A stretch of 64,000 nt of DNA from [Synechococcus] sp. NIES-970 (lineage in GTDB: Bacteria; Cyanobacteriota; Cyanobacteriia; Cyanobacteriales; MRBY01), in the NCBI GenBank assembly GCA_002356215.1, contig AP017959.1, forward strand, positions 930,001-994,000, read 5' to 3'. The notes under the pieces are model-generated. The model had not been told where the DNA came from and did no database searches. It saw only the letters and a list, made by a program, of their open reading frames with translations. The position numbers were made by a program, and so were the translations under genes. Positions 747 through 25,540 of this stretch are shown here, in pieces; the stretch's first letter is position 1, and every line of letters begins with the position of its first letter.

Positions 747-3700
747 ATGGTTCACATCAAGCAAATCGAGCTTTCCCACTTTAAATCCTTCGGGGGTACC
801 GTTGCAGTTCCCCTAATGCCGGGTTTTACCGTGGTTTCAGGGCCGAATGGGTCCGGAAAATCTAATATCCTCGACGGCATTTTGTTTTGCTTGGGGTTAG
901 CCAGTTCTAAGGGAATGCGGGCCGAACGTTTGCCAGATCTGATCAACCACAAACACAATCAGGGTAAAAATACTGCTGAAACGGTGGTGTCAGTAACCTT
1001 TGATCTCAGTGATCTTGCCCAGCAGTATGGTGCTGAAGAAGCGGAAACATCAGAACTCCAAGACTTTTTAGCCCAATTTCAAAGCCACGACTGGACAGTG
1101 ACCCGGAAGCTGCGGGTGACGAAAAGCGGTAGTTATTCTTCTACCTATTACATTAATGATGAAGTTTGTAGCGCTACCGAACTCCACGAACAGCTGAATC
1201 GCCTACGCATCTATCCCGAAGGCTATAACGTCGTCCTCCAGGGGGATGTAACGCGGATCATCACCATGAATAACCGGGAGCGGCGGGAAATTATCGACGA
1301 GTTGGCCGGGGTCGCCGAATTTGACCGCAAAATCACCCAAACCCGCGAAACTCTCAATGCGGTTAAAGAACGGGAAGAAAAATGCCATATTATTCGCCAA
1401 GAACTAGAGCGCAATCTAGAAAAACTAGCCGACGATCGCCTCAAGGCCGAGCAGTACCAACGTTTAAAAATTGACCTGGCTAGGCAGCAACAGGAAGAAG
1501 CCCTATTCACTTGGCGATCGCTCCAACTCCAGGAACAAAAACTTCAGCAGGAGTTGGCAGCGGGGGCGACAACCCGGACCCAACTCACCCAGACCCTCAA
1601 TGATTTAGATGGGAGAATTTTTCAGACGGGCCAAACCCTAGATAGTTTAAACGCCAAGGTAAAAGCCCTGGGGGAAGATGAACAGCTTTCGGTCGCCTCA
1701 AAGCTGGCCACCCAAAAGGCAAAACGCCACCAGTGGGTGGAGCGGCAACAGGAGCTCGAGGCAGATCAAAGGCGATCGCTCGATCTGCACCGACAACTTT
1801 CGGACAATGTTCAAGTCAGTCAGCAACAATTGCTCCACCTCGAAGAAGAAAAACTGACCCTCCAGGAAGAGACGCTCCCCCAACAGCAACAGGCCCTCAC
1901 CAACGCGGAAGAACAACTCCAAATCAGTCGCCACCAGGCCGATGCCCTTGCCAGCTCTTCTGAGGCTTGGGTGCAGGAACAGGCGGCACTGAGTAAAGAC
2001 ATTCAAACCCTCCAAGACCAGCTCAACCCCCAACGGACGGAACAGGCGCTACTCCAGGAACGGGTCAGCCAACTGCAGCAGGCGATCGCCTCCCAAGACA
2101 TTCAAATTGCCCAATGCAACAGGGAGATCAGCCAACAGGAAACAGAATTAGACGAAATGCAAACGGCAGGGGCGGCAAAACAAACCCAGATCCAGACCCT
2201 CGCCCAACAGTTCGCCCAACTGGAGGAAAGCCTCAAACTGGATCAAGAGACAGGCGATCGCCTCCAGCGGGAACAGCGAGACAAACAGCGCCAACTAGAC
2301 CAACTCGAAGCCCGGGCCGAAGCCCAACAGGAAGCCCAGGGAACCTACGCCACCAAGGTGATTTTAAATGCCGATTTACCCGGTGTCCATGGCCTCGTCG
2401 CCCAACTGGGTCAGGTGGAAAAAGCCTACCAACGGGCCTTAGAAATTGCCGCTGGGGGACGCTTGGGTTACCTCGTGGTTGAAGATGACCAGACGGCGGC
2501 GACGGGGATTAAACTCCTGAAAAATCAGCGGGCGGGCCGGGCTACATTTTTACCCTTAAATAAAATTCGCGCCCCAAAATTACAGACCAACGTGATCCCC
2601 CGCTATGCCCAGGGTTTCATTGATTTTGCGGTGAACCTGATCCAATGCGATCGCCGTTACCTCGATATTTTTCGCTATGTATTTGGCAATACCGCTGTTT
2701 TTGAAAACCTCGATTTCGCCCGCAACTTCATGGGCCAGACCCGCATCGTCACCCTCGATGGGGAATTGCTCGAAACGACTGGAGCAATGACCGGGGGCAG
2801 TCTTGGGCAAAAATCTACCCTCCACTTCGGCAGCATGGCCACGGGGGATTCGGCGGAAATAGTCGCCTTGCGGGAACGGCTCAAAGAAATTAGCCACCTG
2901 CTACGCTACACCGAAAACGCGATCCTCGATAAGGGCGATCGCCTCCAGGAACTCACCCAGAATTTAAACCAGGCGCGGCAAGTAGAACGGGAAGCCCAGC
3001 TGCACCAGACCCAGCTGGAAAAATCCCTCGCCAAACTCCGCCCCCAACTGGCCCAGGCCCAACAGCAGCAGCACCAGGCCCAAACGGAATTGGCGATCGC
3101 CCAAGGGCAACTGGCCCACCTCGCCGACCAGATTCCCCAGCTCGAACAGCAATTAACCGTTCACCAAAATCACCTAGCCCAGCTCGAAGCCCAACAAACC
3201 CACCGGGAATGGCAAGAAATTCAACAACTGATCAAAACCCAAGAAGGCGATCGCCAAACAGCAGCCCAAACCCTGAGCATTACCCAACAGAGCATTCAAG
3301 ACCATGAGGCCAAACTCGCCCGACTGAACGACAAATTAACCAATGACGAACAGCGCCTCCAGGAAACCCAGACCCACCTCGAAGACCTCCAGGGACAGAT
3401 TGCGGTCATTCAGACCCAGCTCGATCAAATCACCCTTGAAATCCAGAACACAGAAACCTTCCTCGCCGATCTTTCCGAACAAATGGGAGAAAGTAAAAAG
3501 CAGCGCGACCAGACCGAACTCGCCCTAAAAAATCTCCAAAAGCAGCACCAAGAAACCCAGTGGCAGCTTGAAAAGCTCCAAACCCAACAGCAGGAACGGG
3601 CCCAGACCCTCGAAAAGCTCCAACAGCAAATCCAAACCCAAGAAGCAGAACTGCCCTCAGATCTTGCCCCTGAGCACCTCAACCTTGGAGAAATGCCCAG

Positions 3701-15684: not shown

Positions 15685-15796
15685 AATTTGTTTTGTTAGT
15701 GCAACGTGGTCAACACACAAGCAAAAACGCGAAAAGGGGCATTGTGTTTCGTTAAATCATTCTGCAAATTGACGATCACTTTATGATTAGAGATTA

Positions 15797-16594
15797 TTAT
15801 TCATAATCTTGTGATTTAGTCCACTTAGTTATCTGTTTTTTTAAAATTCGATCAGGAATAACAGATATTATTAATGCTCCTATTCCAACAATTGCTTCAT
15901 CGCTTACATTCTTGTCAGAATTTTTGCTATTAATGGAAGAAACTAAATATGCTAAAAATATAGATACAGTGATTACCAAAATCTTGGCTAGCCAAGCGGC
16001 ACGCATCGATCTGTCATCGATCTTTTTCTGCCTTTTCCCCTCTTGCTCTAAACCTTTTTCTAATTCAGCAATTTTTTTCTGTGAAATTGAGTCTGTGACG
16101 TCAGTTCTTTTGGGGGCTTTACGTATTTTAATAGTCGCTGGATTTGCATTTTTTAAAAAACTAACTGTGCATAAACGTTCTTCATATCCTATTGTTACTG
16201 CCTGACTAGAGTGGTTGTGGATGGCAATCAAAAGCTCACCATCCCAATCAGGATCAACATTGGTCGAAATATGAGATAATCCTTTTGATACTAGCGTCAC
16301 TCTAGAAGTGATTAAACCAGCAAGACTACAATTCTCTGGCATCTTAATATGTTCTAGTGTCAGTATGTTAGCTGTATCTCCGGGTTCAATGACGCAAGGA
16401 CAGTCCTTATTGATATCTTTCTTTTTTCCTGTTTTAAGAGAAAGCCATTCATTCCCAACTCTTAGATCATAACCTAATGCTCCTAATGATTCTTTCGAAA
16501 AGGGATAGATTGATAATTTGGAGATTTCATCCTCACCATTTGGCTTTGCTGGACAAAGAATCTCTTCAATATCTTTGTTGCTTAATAAACACAT
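15797..16594 (-). CDS. Membrane-anchored dCTP deaminase/dUTPase-like protein, active site altered
   Basis: From the ATG at 16592-16594 the protein has 265 residues and starts MCLLSNKDIEEIL, like Dcd enzymes; an upstream TTG gives 281. Residues 1-150 follow the dCTP deaminase fold: GYDLRVG (41-47), ITSRVTLVSKGL, NVDPDWDGELLIAIHN and an IGYEERLCTVSFL end. Aligned by eye with E. coli Dcd, the catalytic glutamate falls on Ala124, and the Ser and Arg of SSLxR fall on Val99 and Ser103. A charged helix (170-198) leads to membrane segments at 201-220 and about 233-248. The gene is clearly more AT-rich than its neighbours, suggesting transfer. Confidence 0.7.
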   Translation of the reverse strand: MCLLSNKDIEEILCPAKPNGEDEISKLSIYPFSKESLGALGYDLRVGNEWLSLKTGKKKDINKDCPCVIEPGDTANILTLEHIKMPENCSLAGLITSRVTLVSKGLSHISTNVDPDWDGELLIAIHNHSSQAVTIGYEERLCTVSFLKNANPATIKIRKAPKRTDVTDSISQKKIAELEKGLEQEGKRQKKIDDRSMRAAWLAKILVITVSIFLAYLVSSINSKNSDKNVSDEAIVGIGALIISVIPDRILKKQITKWTKSQDYE

Positions 16595-16739
16595 ATTTTG
16601 TTCAGTAAAGGTACTCAATAAGTATAGATATTTTGACCTCAATCAATTAGTCGTAATAACCGTCGCTAGTTTCCAAGATTTTTCTACTGGAAGCTAAAAA
16701 CGTTAAGCTATATTACGTACTCATTTTCAGACGGCAGAC

Positions 16740-18245
16740 ATGGCACGGGATTTACGCACATTTATCAAACTGGTAGAAGAACGGGGGCAACTGCGCCGCA
16801 TTAAAGCCCTTGTCGACTCGGATCTAGAGATCGCCGAGATCGCGAACCGGATGTTGCAGGTGGGCGGTCCTGCGTTGTTGTTTGAGAATGTGCGGGGGAC
16901 TTCGGTTCCGGTGGTGGTGAATCTACTGGGGACGGTGGAGCGCATCTGTTGGGCGATGAAAATGGAAAAGCCCGAAGAACTAGAGGATCTTGGCCGGAAG
17001 TTGGCGATGTTGCAGCAGCCGAAACCTCCGAAAAAGATTGCTCAGGCGGTGGATTTCGGTAAGGTACTGTTTGATGTATTGAAGGCGAAACCCGGTGGGA
17101 GTTTTCTGCCTGCCTGTCAGCAAGTGGTGGTCAAAGAAGAGGAACTAGACCTGAATTTGATCCCGATGTTGCGTCCCTATCCCAAGGATGCCGGGAAAAA
17201 TATTACCCTCGGTTTGGTGATTACCAAAGATTGTGAAACGGGTGTGCCGAATGTGGGGGTCTATCGCCTGCAATTGCAATCGAAAACGACGATGACGGTG
17301 CATTGGCTGTCAGTACGGGGTGGGGCGCGTCATCTCCGTAAGGCGGCGGAACAGGGTAAAAAATTGGAAGTGGCGATCGCCGTCGGTATCGACCCCATTT
17401 TAATCATGGCAGCGGCAACCCCGATTCCTGTGGACTTGTCTGAATGGCTATTTGCGGGACTGTATGGCGGTTCGGGCGTGGCATTGACCAAATGTAAGAC
17501 GCTGGATCTGGAAGTGCCTGCTGATGCGGAATTTATCCTCGAAGGCACGATTACCCCCGGTGAAATGTTGCCTGATGGGCCTTTCGGCGATCACATGGGC
17601 TATTACGGCGGCATGGAGGATTCCCCCTTGGTGCGCTTCCACTGCATGACCCATCGCAAAGACCCGATTTATTTGGCAACTTTTAGCGGTCGTCCCCCCA
17701 AAGAAGAAGCGATGATGGCGATCGCCTTGAATCGGATTTATACGCCGATCCTCCGACAGCAAGTGTCGGAAATTGTGGACTTTTTCCTCCCCATGGAAGC
17801 TCTTAGTTATAAGGCTGCAATTATCTCCATTGATAAGGCTTATCCGGGCCAAGCTCGACGGGCTGCCCTCGCATTTTGGAGTGCGTTACCGCAGTTTACC
17901 TATACAAAATTTGTGATTGTTGTAGATAAAGATATTAATATTCGTGATCCGCGCCAAATTGTCTGGGCAATTAGTTCAAAAGTTGACCCGGTGCGCGATG
18001 TGTTTATTTTGCCGGATACGCCCTTTGATACCCTTGATTTTGCCAGTGAAAAAATTGGTATGGGCGGACGTATGGGCATCGATGCCACGACAAAAATTCC
18101 GCCGGAAACCGATCACGAATGGGGCGAAGTTTTAGAGTCTGATCCCGATATTGTCGACAGATGCGATCGCCGTTGGGAAGAATATGGATTAGCCGACATT
18201 GATTTAACAGAAGTAGACCCGAATAAATTTGGCTATGAAATGTAA
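16740..18245 (+). CDS. ubiD: UbiD family decarboxylase
   Basis: A 501-residue UbiD-type decarboxylase, which uses prenylated FMN to remove the carboxyl group of aromatic or alpha,beta-unsaturated acids. Recognisable parts are RDLRTFIKLVEERGQLRRI at the start, NITLGLVITKDCETGVPNVG (about 155-175), DGPFGDHMGYYGG near 280 in the active-site region, and SALPQFTYTKFVIVVDKDIN near 380. In cyanobacteria the natural role is probably 4-hydroxybenzoate decarboxylation in plastoquinone synthesis; substrate is inference. No ubiX is adjacent. Confidence 0.9.
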   Translation: MARDLRTFIKLVEERGQLRRIKALVDSDLEIAEIANRMLQVGGPALLFENVRGTSVPVVVNLLGTVERICWAMKMEKPEELEDLGRKLAMLQQPKPPKKIAQAVDFGKVLFDVLKAKPGGSFLPACQQVVVKEEELDLNLIPMLRPYPKDAGKNITLGLVITKDCETGVPNVGVYRLQLQSKTTMTVHWLSVRGGARHLRKAAEQGKKLEVAIAVGIDPILIMAAATPIPVDLSEWLFAGLYGGSGVALTKCKTLDLEVPADAEFILEGTITPGEMLPDGPFGDHMGYYGGMEDSPLVRFHCMTHRKDPIYLATFSGRPPKEEAMMAIALNRIYTPILRQQVSEIVDFFLPMEALSYKAAIISIDKAYPGQARRAALAFWSALPQFTYTKFVIVVDKDINIRDPRQIVWAISSKVDPVRDVFILPDTPFDTLDFASEKIGMGGRMGIDATTKIPPETDHEWGEVLESDPDIVDRCDRRWEEYGLADIDLTEVDPNKFGYEM

Positions 18246-23693: not shown

Positions 23694-24698
23694 TTATTTT
23701 ACCGGATGATCTGGCGCTCCCTTGCCTCCGGCCATCACCTCGGCCATGAGAGCGGCCACCGAGGCTGTCCCCATTGACGGCTCAAAGGTGATCGGAAACT
23801 TACCATGCCACAACATTCGCCACCCCAGGGGGAAAATTTCAGGACTACTCTGGAGACCAAACACCATTAGGGCAAAACGCCGTTCATCGACCCAGCCCCC
23901 TGCTTGAACGAGTTGGAGGAGGGTTTTTCGATGACGCACAGCCCGGCTTGTATTGGGGTCTTTTTGTTGGAGAAGGGTACTTTTGATGGCGGTAATGCGG
24001 TCTAGGGGATCGACCCCCTGGGGACAAACATAGTTACATTGATAGCAACGGGTACAGTCCCAGACGCCAGCGGTCGGTTGATGGTATTTGTCTAGGCGGG
24101 CGGCGGTGATACCATCGCGGGAATCATTCAAAAGGCGATCGCCTTTTGCCAAGGCATGAGGACCAAAAAAGTCTGGATTAACGGCCACAGCATTACATTC
24201 ACTGTAACAAGCACCACAGAGAATACAGTTCCCAGCCTGATTCAAGGCCTCGCGCTCTGTGGGAGACTGACGAAATTCCCGCTCCGGTAGATCCTGGGGA
24301 GATTGTCGCTGCACAGCAGGGCCAATGCTTTCGAGTTGTTGCCAAAAGGACTGTAAATCTACCACCAGATCCTTAATCACAGGCAGATTTTTTAGGGGGG
24401 TAATCGTTAATTGAGGAATTGCCCCATTGTCCCGGTGCAACCCTCGCCAACGGTTAACTTCTTCGCCTACATTTTCTTTGCATGCCAGGGCTGCCCGGCC
24501 ATTAATCCCCATCCCACAACTGCCACAGATAGTATTGCGACAATTCTTGCGAAAAGCTAAGCTTCCATCCTGCTGCCATTTGATTTGATTTAAACAATCT
24601 AAAACCGTTGTACTTTCTGGGACAGAAAGATGATAAGTCAAGAATTCCGGTGCGACATTCCGCTGCCGTTGGCGCAGAATTTTCAAGGCGATGTCCAT
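23694..24698 (-). CDS. sdhB: Succinate dehydrogenase/fumarate reductase iron-sulfur subunit
   Basis: The ATG at 24696-24698 gives 334 residues; an upstream TTG is unlikely. SdhB passes electrons from succinate to quinone. The [2Fe-2S] ligands are in CRNTICGSCGMGINGRAALAC near residue 60. The [4Fe-4S]/[3Fe-4S] ferredoxin part has CILCGACYSEC and CTRCYQCNYVCPQGVDP. At about 330 residues it is longer than the bacterial 240-260, with a C-terminal extension as in other cyanobacterial SdhB. No sdhA lies beside it, so the complex is encoded at dispersed sites. Confidence 0.92.
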   Translation of the reverse strand: MDIALKILRQRQRNVAPEFLTYHLSVPESTTVLDCLNQIKWQQDGSLAFRKNCRNTICGSCGMGINGRAALACKENVGEEVNRWRGLHRDNGAIPQLTITPLKNLPVIKDLVVDLQSFWQQLESIGPAVQRQSPQDLPEREFRQSPTEREALNQAGNCILCGACYSECNAVAVNPDFFGPHALAKGDRLLNDSRDGITAARLDKYHQPTAGVWDCTRCYQCNYVCPQGVDPLDRITAIKSTLLQQKDPNTSRAVRHRKTLLQLVQAGGWVDERRFALMVFGLQSSPEIFPLGWRMLWHGKFPITFEPSMGTASVAALMAEVMAGGKGAPDHPVK

Positions 24699-24950
24699 TT
24701 CCCAGCCCTTATTTTGCCACAAACTTCTTTTTCTTAGTCTATAAGGAGAGACTTCATCGTTGTCCCCATCGTCGACAAAGTTAACAAATAATCCTTAGGA
24801 CTGTGGCAATTTAGAAAAAATATTGCTGCACTTTTCAAAAAACTTTTTAAATAAACTGCACAAAAGGGAATTTTTGCAGTTATATTTACAAATGTGGTAA
24901 GTTTATTGCCGACAAAAAAATAGACTCAAAAAAACAAGCGTTTTAGAAAT

Positions 24951-25319
24951 ATGAGTGACATCCCGACAACTCCTTTAAAAGGAAAGGCTCTGCTGAGTAA
25001 AGTCAAGGAATTATCCCATTTGCCCCGACGAGAAACCGCAAAACTTTGTGGCTATAGCAGTACAAAAAATGGCTCAACTCGTGTCAATTTGACAGGTTTT
25101 TATGATGCTGTCCTCGAAGCAAAAGGACTTCCCTTGGATCCTGGTGGTAGTCAAGATGGTCGTGGGAGAGAACCCACCTACCGTGTGAGTGTCCACAAAA
25201 ATGGCCAAATTGTGATTGGTTCTACCTACACAAATCAAATGAACCTGAAGCCTGGGGATGAATTCGAAATTAAAATTGGCTACAAGCACATTCATCTCAA
25301 GCAAGTCAACGAAGCCTAA
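24951..25319 (+). CDS. cyAbrB-type transcriptional regulator
   Basis: A 122-residue cyanobacterial AbrB-like protein. The conserved N-terminal part has LKGKALLSKVKELSHLPRRE and AKLCGYSSTKNGSTRVNLTG. The C-terminal AbrB-type DNA-binding half has YRVSVHKNGQIVIGSTYT, then LKPGDEFEIKIGYKHIHL. In Synechocystis the two cyAbrB paralogues control nitrogen and carbon genes, hydrogenase and cell size. Which paralogue this is cannot be settled here. It has its own 250-base AT-rich upstream region, diverging from sdhB. Confidence 0.9.
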   Translation: MSDIPTTPLKGKALLSKVKELSHLPRRETAKLCGYSSTKNGSTRVNLTGFYDAVLEAKGLPLDPGGSQDGRGREPTYRVSVHKNGQIVIGSTYTNQMNLKPGDEFEIKIGYKHIHLKQVNEA

Positions 25320-25336
25320 AAGCATCGTTTAAGTCA

Positions 25337-25375
25337 AGTCCTGTCAATGATTAAGATTTCTTTTGTGACAGGACT
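25337..25375. other. Hairpin downstream of cyabrB
   Basis: A perfect 10-base inverted repeat, AGTCCTGTCA/TGACAGGACT, with a 19-base loop starts 18 bases after the cyabrB stop. No T-run follows on the plus strand, so it may stabilise the mRNA end rather than end transcription. Confidence 0.5.
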
Positions 25376-25540
25376 AAGCTTGTCTAGAGGTTTATTTTCC
25401 TAAGAGCTTTCTCTCAAAAGAGATATCTGGTCAGGTCACCATCATTGCAAAAAATTCATCATTTGCTGCTCGCTAGACGAGGAATAGACTGCTAGATTTT
25501 TTAGAGAATTTTCTAAACTAATTTTTAATGGGGGTCATGG

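Follow-up and report, generated by a model that had tools for sequence, protein, structure and literature searches.

The protein encoded at 15797-16594 in a 64,000-nucleotide stretch of the [Synechococcus] sp. NIES-970 genome (contig AP017959.1, positions 930,001 to 994,000; here referred to as the window) has, as judged from its sequence, a dCTP deaminase (Dcd)-type fold, has lost deaminase residues, and carries a predicted hydrophobic tail. It belongs to a cyanobacterial branch of relatives whose genes, by the same kind of evidence, are linked to those for dTMP synthesis, whether dUMP comes from Dcd, dCMP deaminase, or dUTPase and whether ThyA or ThyX makes dTMP. We regard as evenly poised the reading that the window protein is a noncatalytic, membrane-tethered Dcd-fold sensor or regulator of dTMP synthesis that was gained horizontally. 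In the usual view, soluble enzymes under allosteric control set the dNTP balance; a Glu-less, membrane-tailed Dcd that neighbors thymidylate genes in 14 families, among enzyme sets that differ, suggests a possible regulatory layer at the membrane.

The gene lies in an intact open reading frame (ORF) on the minus strand (15797-16642 in the ORF listing of the window). The original prediction began it at a TTG at 16642, adding 16 residues that are absent from aligned homologues; because homologues begin at the residue that matches an internal ATG at 16594, the likely start, the protein is most likely 265 amino acids long. Its features are as follows.

15797..16594, minus strand: pseudo-Dcd membrane protein gene, 265 amino acids, ATG start (homologue alignment)
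16133..16519, minus strand: Dcd/dUTPase-fold domain, residues 26-154 (Pfam, TIGRFAM, HMMER alignment, AlphaFold2, VIA-align)
16223..16225, minus strand: Ala124 codon GCC, at the place of the Dcd catalytic Glu138 (HMMER alignment)
15998..16081, minus strand: charged helix, residues 172-199 (AlphaFold2, low confidence)
15941..15997, minus strand: hydrophobic segment 1, residues 200-218 (Kyte-Doolittle 2.21)
15842..15898, minus strand: hydrophobic segment 2, residues 233-251 (Kyte-Doolittle 1.68)

The Dcd/dUTPase fold claimed in the original prediction is borne out by the Pfam DCD score and by structural matching. The DCD profile (PF22769) matches with an E value of 1.2e-10 and 42.1 bits, above its gathering cutoff of 27; the dUTPase profile (PF00692) matches residues 65-170 (28.1 bits, cutoff 22) and overlaps the better-scoring DCD match; and the PHROG dCTP deaminase match has an E value of 1.1e-17. 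The score falls below the TIGR02274 dCTP_deam equivalog cutoff (64.3 bits versus 92.8), and in a search of the host genome this model gave 62.6 for the window protein and 121.3 for the true Dcd of the host. An AlphaFold2 monomer model from a 4-row alignment (mean pLDDT 59.6, pTM 0.44) serves for the domain fold only, with block means of pLDDT of 63-88 across residues 41-150. In this low-confidence model, the fold is closest to 8y1w (VIA-align Z 16.0, rmsd 3.1 across 123 residues), and the superposition on E. coli Dcd that had been proposed as a check gave a Z of 14.3 with the E138A-dTTP entry 2j4q. The charged helix and two membrane segments that had been read after the domain also reappear: Kyte-Doolittle analysis places hydrophobic segments at 200-218 and 233-251, and the model has helices at 172-222, 233-245, and 248-260, in a part of low confidence.

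Three substitutions had been proposed by eye, in which Ala replaces the catalytic Glu, Val the active-site Ser, and Ser the Arg of SSLxR. All three hold when the window protein is aligned with E. coli Dcd (1xs1) by HMMER; its residue numbers were counted by hand from this alignment. E138, S111, and R115 of the E. coli protein become A124, V99, and S103; T100 stands at S112, and R110 and D128 are kept as R98 and D114. The description of the active site as dismantled is apt in that Glu, Ser, and Arg are lost. It calls for caution as to the Glu, whose loss alone does not mean a dead protein because Glu-less solved relatives carry dUTPase titles (8y1w, 9ln0, and 9ln3). In these three PDB entries, which have Met at the Glu position, the chain records name a dCTP deaminase and the titles a dUTPase. 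The Ser, Arg, and Gln that they keep are also gone in the window protein (V, S, and T), with V99 where P45 has its motif-2 Ser and T143 where P45 has its motif-4 Gln. The glycine-rich motif 5 that dUTPases are generally known to have is likewise absent from its sequence. Glu-to-Ala entries of E. coli Dcd still hold a nucleotide according to their PDB titles (dCTP in 1xs4, dTTP in 2j4q). Simple misannotation of an ordinary Dcd is ruled out by the TIGR02274 score below cutoff, the three lost catalytic-site residues, and the true Dcd in the host; pseudogene status is ruled out by the intact ORF and a residue pattern common to relatives. We caution against annotating genes of this Glu-less, membrane-tailed kind (here, Dcd-TM) as dCTP deaminases.

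A search for the same layout in other genomes, as the original prediction had suggested, found a Dcd domain with a hydrophobic tail in all 69 aligned proteins, and this recurrence argues that the architecture of the window protein is more than chance. All 69 family members have a hydrophobic segment after the domain, as against 0 of 19 neighboring true Dcds, and the catalytic column holds Glu or Asp in none of the 69 and Glu in all 19. We took 68 regions, in which 66 family ORFs were recognized (none in L127 and L130); the 69 proteins are these ORFs minus four short or broken ones, plus the window protein, three plasmid proteins, and three viral proteins. The single locus from the genome-contig scan proved, once examined, not to be a Dcd relative. 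Sequence matches occur in 30 of 386 genomes of the phylum, a count that includes the window's own genome and at least two true Dcds (L030 and L031). Profile matches occur in 77 of 388 genomes of the order, of which eleven, all weak (E 6e-7 to 3e-4), were left out. Since 311 of the 388 have no match, the protein is accessory, and thymidylate synthesis works without it. Short or broken gene copies in L059, L100, L126, and L133, still beside thymidylate genes, indicate that the gene can be lost. Spread outside the phylum is known from plasmid and viral records. Searches of open-licence papers turned up no earlier description of a Glu-less, membrane-tailed Dcd, and one may exist.

The altered domain is itself conserved across the core clade, which speaks for a retained function over decay. 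All 54 core-clade rows have T79 and P115, V99 is present in 51 and H108 in 44, and all four are unlike the 19 neighboring true Dcds. E81, T111, and N127, invariant in core clade and true Dcds alike, may be merely structural. Elsewhere, S103 is found in 40 of the 54 rows, Lys or Arg at the R110 place in only 31, and Gln at the T143 position in none; the D114 position holds Asp in 32 and Asn in 21. A pocket that is altered yet conserved suggests a new function more than it does decay.

At least one of six thymidylate-pathway genes lies within 1.5 kb in all 54 loci of the cyanobacterial branch, which span 14 families, and in 49 of them such a gene is on the same strand within 150 bp; over all recognized family ORFs, the linkage is 54 of 66. 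The branch is taken to be cyanobacterial because a PsbA-like ORF lies close to L050, in a genome from the same order. Because many loci are related, with 25 of the 54 in one family, the 14 families are the safer count, and the six reference genes were picked after the neighborhoods had been seen. Within 2 kb, ThyA or ThyX is encoded in 50 of the 54 loci, a dUMP-producing enzyme in 53, dUTPase in 15, and Dcd in 17. The commonest layout within 2 kb is ThyA-DUF4346 / NDT-like / dCMP deaminase (24 loci), followed by ThyA / Dcd and ThyA / dCMP deaminase (6 each) and Dcd / ThyX / dUTPase and Dcd / ThyA / dUTPase (4 each), with other layouts making up the remainder. Pfam identified example neighbors as thymidylate synthase with PterinBD-DUF4346, dCMP deaminase, Thy1, and dUTPase; the Nuc_deoxyrib_tr match of the NDT-like neighbor is under the cutoff. 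A true Dcd gene lies directly upstream on the same strand, 16-72 bp away, in L032-L035, L096, and L101. That Dcd-TM is constant among changing partners follows by design, as loci were chosen for holding it; the information in the linkage is that the partners belong to one pathway.

Twelve of the 66 family ORFs fall outside this 54-locus count. L047, L049, L124, and L125 have MazG-type, HMUDK_hel-type, and DUF1643-type neighbors, and L054, L055, L057, and L119-L123 lack the reference genes, some being on short contigs. L042, L044, and the four broken copies count among the 54 linkage loci but not among the 54 rows used for conservation, a different set that takes in the window, plasmid, and viral rows.

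The window copy has the Glu-less Dcd domain and C-terminal hydrophobic segment of the Dcd-TM branch and groups with it in the tree, inside the 54-row clade (support 94/90, not starred). Its nearest relative is L104, from another family, at 48% identity (90/76), and together they are sister to the Dcd-adjacent group (92/87). This position is moderately supported and on a long end branch, and the tree tool warned of long branches. The original prediction described the gene as alone among core genes, and its direct neighbors are indeed a Germane-domain lipoprotein gene and a ubiD-like gene. No thymidylate-pathway gene lies within 1.5 kb of the window copy, and the operon argument therefore reaches it only through kinship. 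In the host genome, Dcd and ThyX genes are at C1:126-129 kb, dUTPase at 182 kb, and the window gene at 945.8 kb. A joined query of that genome returned no NDT and no dCMP deaminase, and ThyA-DUF4346 only as a weak match to the DUF4346 end (E 1.6e-5). The host ThyX gene itself (L138, ORF 1504-3399 on the minus strand; G000:C1:126016-128121), which adjoins Dcd, is interrupted in frame, giving a 631-amino-acid ORF whose insert has, by eye, intein-like ends and an HNH-like stretch. Another in-frame interruption, probably an intein, follows STYAR in a 582-amino-acid true Dcd ORF at L041:6680-8428.

AT-richness and horizontal gain, both proposed originally, are supported. The window gene has a GC content of 0.349 and a GC3 of 0.27, far below the means of the other 48 mechanically called window ORFs (0.506, standard deviation 0.022, and 0.520, standard deviation 0.056); its GC resembles the 0.26-0.37 of 27 other ORFs that were examined alongside for hydrophobicity. 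A true Dcd is present in 6 of 6 genomes of the genus, and none of the five other genomes has the window gene. Among three congeners with a ubiD match there is no clean empty site: the sequence just upstream of ubiD differs, AT-rich ORFs occur there in two congeners, and the lipoprotein gene lies at another place. This difference points to a variable slot for insertions in front of the ubiD-like gene (window 15685-16740; L156, L157, and L158). AT-richness, absence from congeners, and the differing slot together support horizontal gain of a dispensable gene, to which the distance of its nearest relative can be added. A search for flanking repeats found only short, chance-like ones. The window has a second AT-rich dip at 24500-25500 (GC 0.38-0.42), mostly without a long ORF.

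Relatives on mobile and viral sequences have other company. On two Bacillota plasmids the Dcd-TM gene is followed by dut, and in Peribacillus (L060) a SIR2 candidate defense gene (PDC-S25, E 3.2e-159) lies 30 bp upstream of it. A Sinorhizobium plasmid (L063:2748-6770) has, in a row, genes for a phospholipase (PDLC00755, E 4.3e-164), a CBASS cyclase (PDLC00788, E 3.3e-124), Dcd-TM, a MazG-like protein that scores under its cutoff, and an FMN-oxidoreductase-like protein; in a Rhizobium relative, 69.5% identical to the Sinorhizobium one, AAA ATPase and UvrD-like genes take the upstream place. In L047, PtuA of Septu adjoins Dcd-TM on the other strand. L047 (7465-13175), L049, L124, and L125 share a conserved cluster of HMUDK_hel-type, DUF1643-type, MazG/MazG_C-type, and Dcd-TM genes. 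Uracil-DNA glycosylase genes lie near Dcd-TM on the alphaproteobacterial plasmids L168-L170, one of which also has MazG, and L168 and L170 have ImmA/IrrE and C1-peptidase genes too. By eye, the plasmid relatives L165, L166, and L168-L170 are Glu-less and carry one or two hydrophobic segments; that of L169 lacks its N-terminus. A scan of 2.9 million viral contigs with the single protein found none, and a profile scan found four loci, two with the same match figures. Viral loci L134, L136, and L137 have the hydrophobic tail, and the contigs of the last two were recovered in a further search. On two viral contigs the Dcd-TM gene directly precedes a dUTPase gene, and on a third it is followed by a cytidylyltransferase-like gene. 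We rejected a phage gene as the origin: the 19 matching phage records each cover no more than 58% of the query, and those annotated are mostly dCTP deaminase or dUTPase. No PADLOC 2.0 family matches the window protein at E values up to 1, and PADLOC gave no match for the Dcd-TM proteins of L060, L063, and L047 or for the MazG_C and HMUDK_hel proteins of L047.

With catalysis removed, the fold kept, and a membrane segment attached, a subunit that senses or tunes the dUTP/dTTP/dCTP balance is plausible. Such a protein would form a trimer, as other superfamily members do, with a pyrimidine deoxynucleotide (dTTP, dUTP, or dCTP) still able to occupy the pockets between subunits. The helix would relay binding to partner enzymes or the membrane, and the pools would thereby be read or tuned, not converted. 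The window's organism would have received the single gene by horizontal transfer, away from the host Dcd-ThyX pair. The intact host Dcd means that the window protein is not needed for deamination. The main weakness of the sensor reading is that phosphate binding may differ with Ser111 and Arg115 gone; given these losses and Lys or Arg at the R110 place in only 31 of 54 rows, the protein may bind nucleotides weakly or take a different ligand. More tentatively, and with some doubt, many cyanobacteria might have a membrane-embedded dead Dcd as a so far unrecognized regulatory subunit of dTMP synthesis. Its trimer would read the dUTP/dTTP/dCTP balance and signal it to the membrane or to the enzymes, whichever these are, that produce dUMP and dTMP, and mobile and defense loci might have taken up the same sensor with imbalance as the alarm for infection. 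Recurrence beside CBASS, SIR2, and Septu genes would then tie housekeeping dNTP sensing to dNTP sensing in phage defense.

Instead of sensing a ligand, the domain could act as a scaffold, joining true Dcd, dUTPase, or thymidylate synthase in mixed trimers or docking them, and so hold these enzymes at the membrane. The true Dcd genes 16-72 bp upstream in the sister group of the window protein and L104 favor this; however, the partners vary among ThyA, ThyX, dCMP deaminase, and dUTPase, which have different folds and thus make one docking surface for all improbable, and the window copy is unlinked. We consider a scaffold unlikely. A device that senses dUTP/dTTP or a phage dUTPase or Dcd and damages the membrane on infection would account for a patchy, AT-rich, horizontally moved gene and for the same architecture beside CBASS, SIR2, and PtuA of Septu and near uracil-DNA glycosylase genes on three plasmids, two with ImmA/IrrE and one with MazG. 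PMC13092281 (2026) lists dUTPase, MazG, and aGPT-Pplase as predicted, unvalidated defense domains and thymidylate synthase and 5-hydroxymethyluracil kinase among domains newly validated in defense. Yet neither the window protein nor the L060, L063, and L047 relatives match PADLOC, the window's own branch keeps company with biosynthetic genes, and both direct neighbors of the window gene are nondefense genes, and we accordingly rate an antiphage device as rather improbable. The decoy in phage conflict that was originally proposed fares no better: some distant relatives do sit in defense neighborhoods, but the closer ones accompany thymidylate-synthesis genes and PADLOC finds no match, which makes a decoy the less likely role for the window's branch. 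There is, finally, a slim chance of a membrane-bound enzyme still at work, of the dUTPase or another nucleotide-hydrolase type. The closest solved relatives are archaeal-type Glu-less proteins titled dUTPase, the Pfam dUTPase score exceeds its cutoff, and D114 preserves the Asp of dUTPase motif 3. That Asp is nevertheless Asn in 21 of the 54 core-clade rows; the motif-2 Ser, SSLxR Arg, and motif-4 Gln of dUTPases are replaced in the window protein, the Gln in all 54 rows; motif 5 is missing; and a real dUTPase or Dcd is often encoded within 2 kb already.

The preferred reading, a noncatalytic sensor or regulator, sets the window protein beside several known systems. It shares with E. coli dCTP deaminase (1xs1) the fold, a DPxWxG-like core, E81, and N127, and E. 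coli Dcd entries match the window model with Z scores of 12.4-14.3; that enzyme, in contrast, has the catalytic Glu, Ser111, and Arg115 and no hydrophobic tail. Closest in sequence (phmmer E 1.4e-20) are 8y1w, from Thermococcus pacificus, and 9ln0/9ln3 (P45), which are also Glu-less but retain both RSS..R and the motif-4 Gln, in chains of only 155-156 amino acids. Phage-defense dCTP deaminases are active enzymes that have Dcd ancestry in common with the window protein, which is without a PADLOC match. As for control by nucleotides, PMC4827122 describes feedback regulation of true Dcds by dTTP, which binds in the trimer's active site, and PMC5519681 describes a Dcd:dut enzyme as inhibited by dTTP. 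The predicted, unvalidated defense systems of PMC13092281 have dUTPase, MazG, and aGPT-Pplase domains; distant Dcd-TM relatives resemble them in having MazG, MazG_C, HMUDK_hel, or UDG genes alongside, whereas the window's branch accompanies thymidylate genes.
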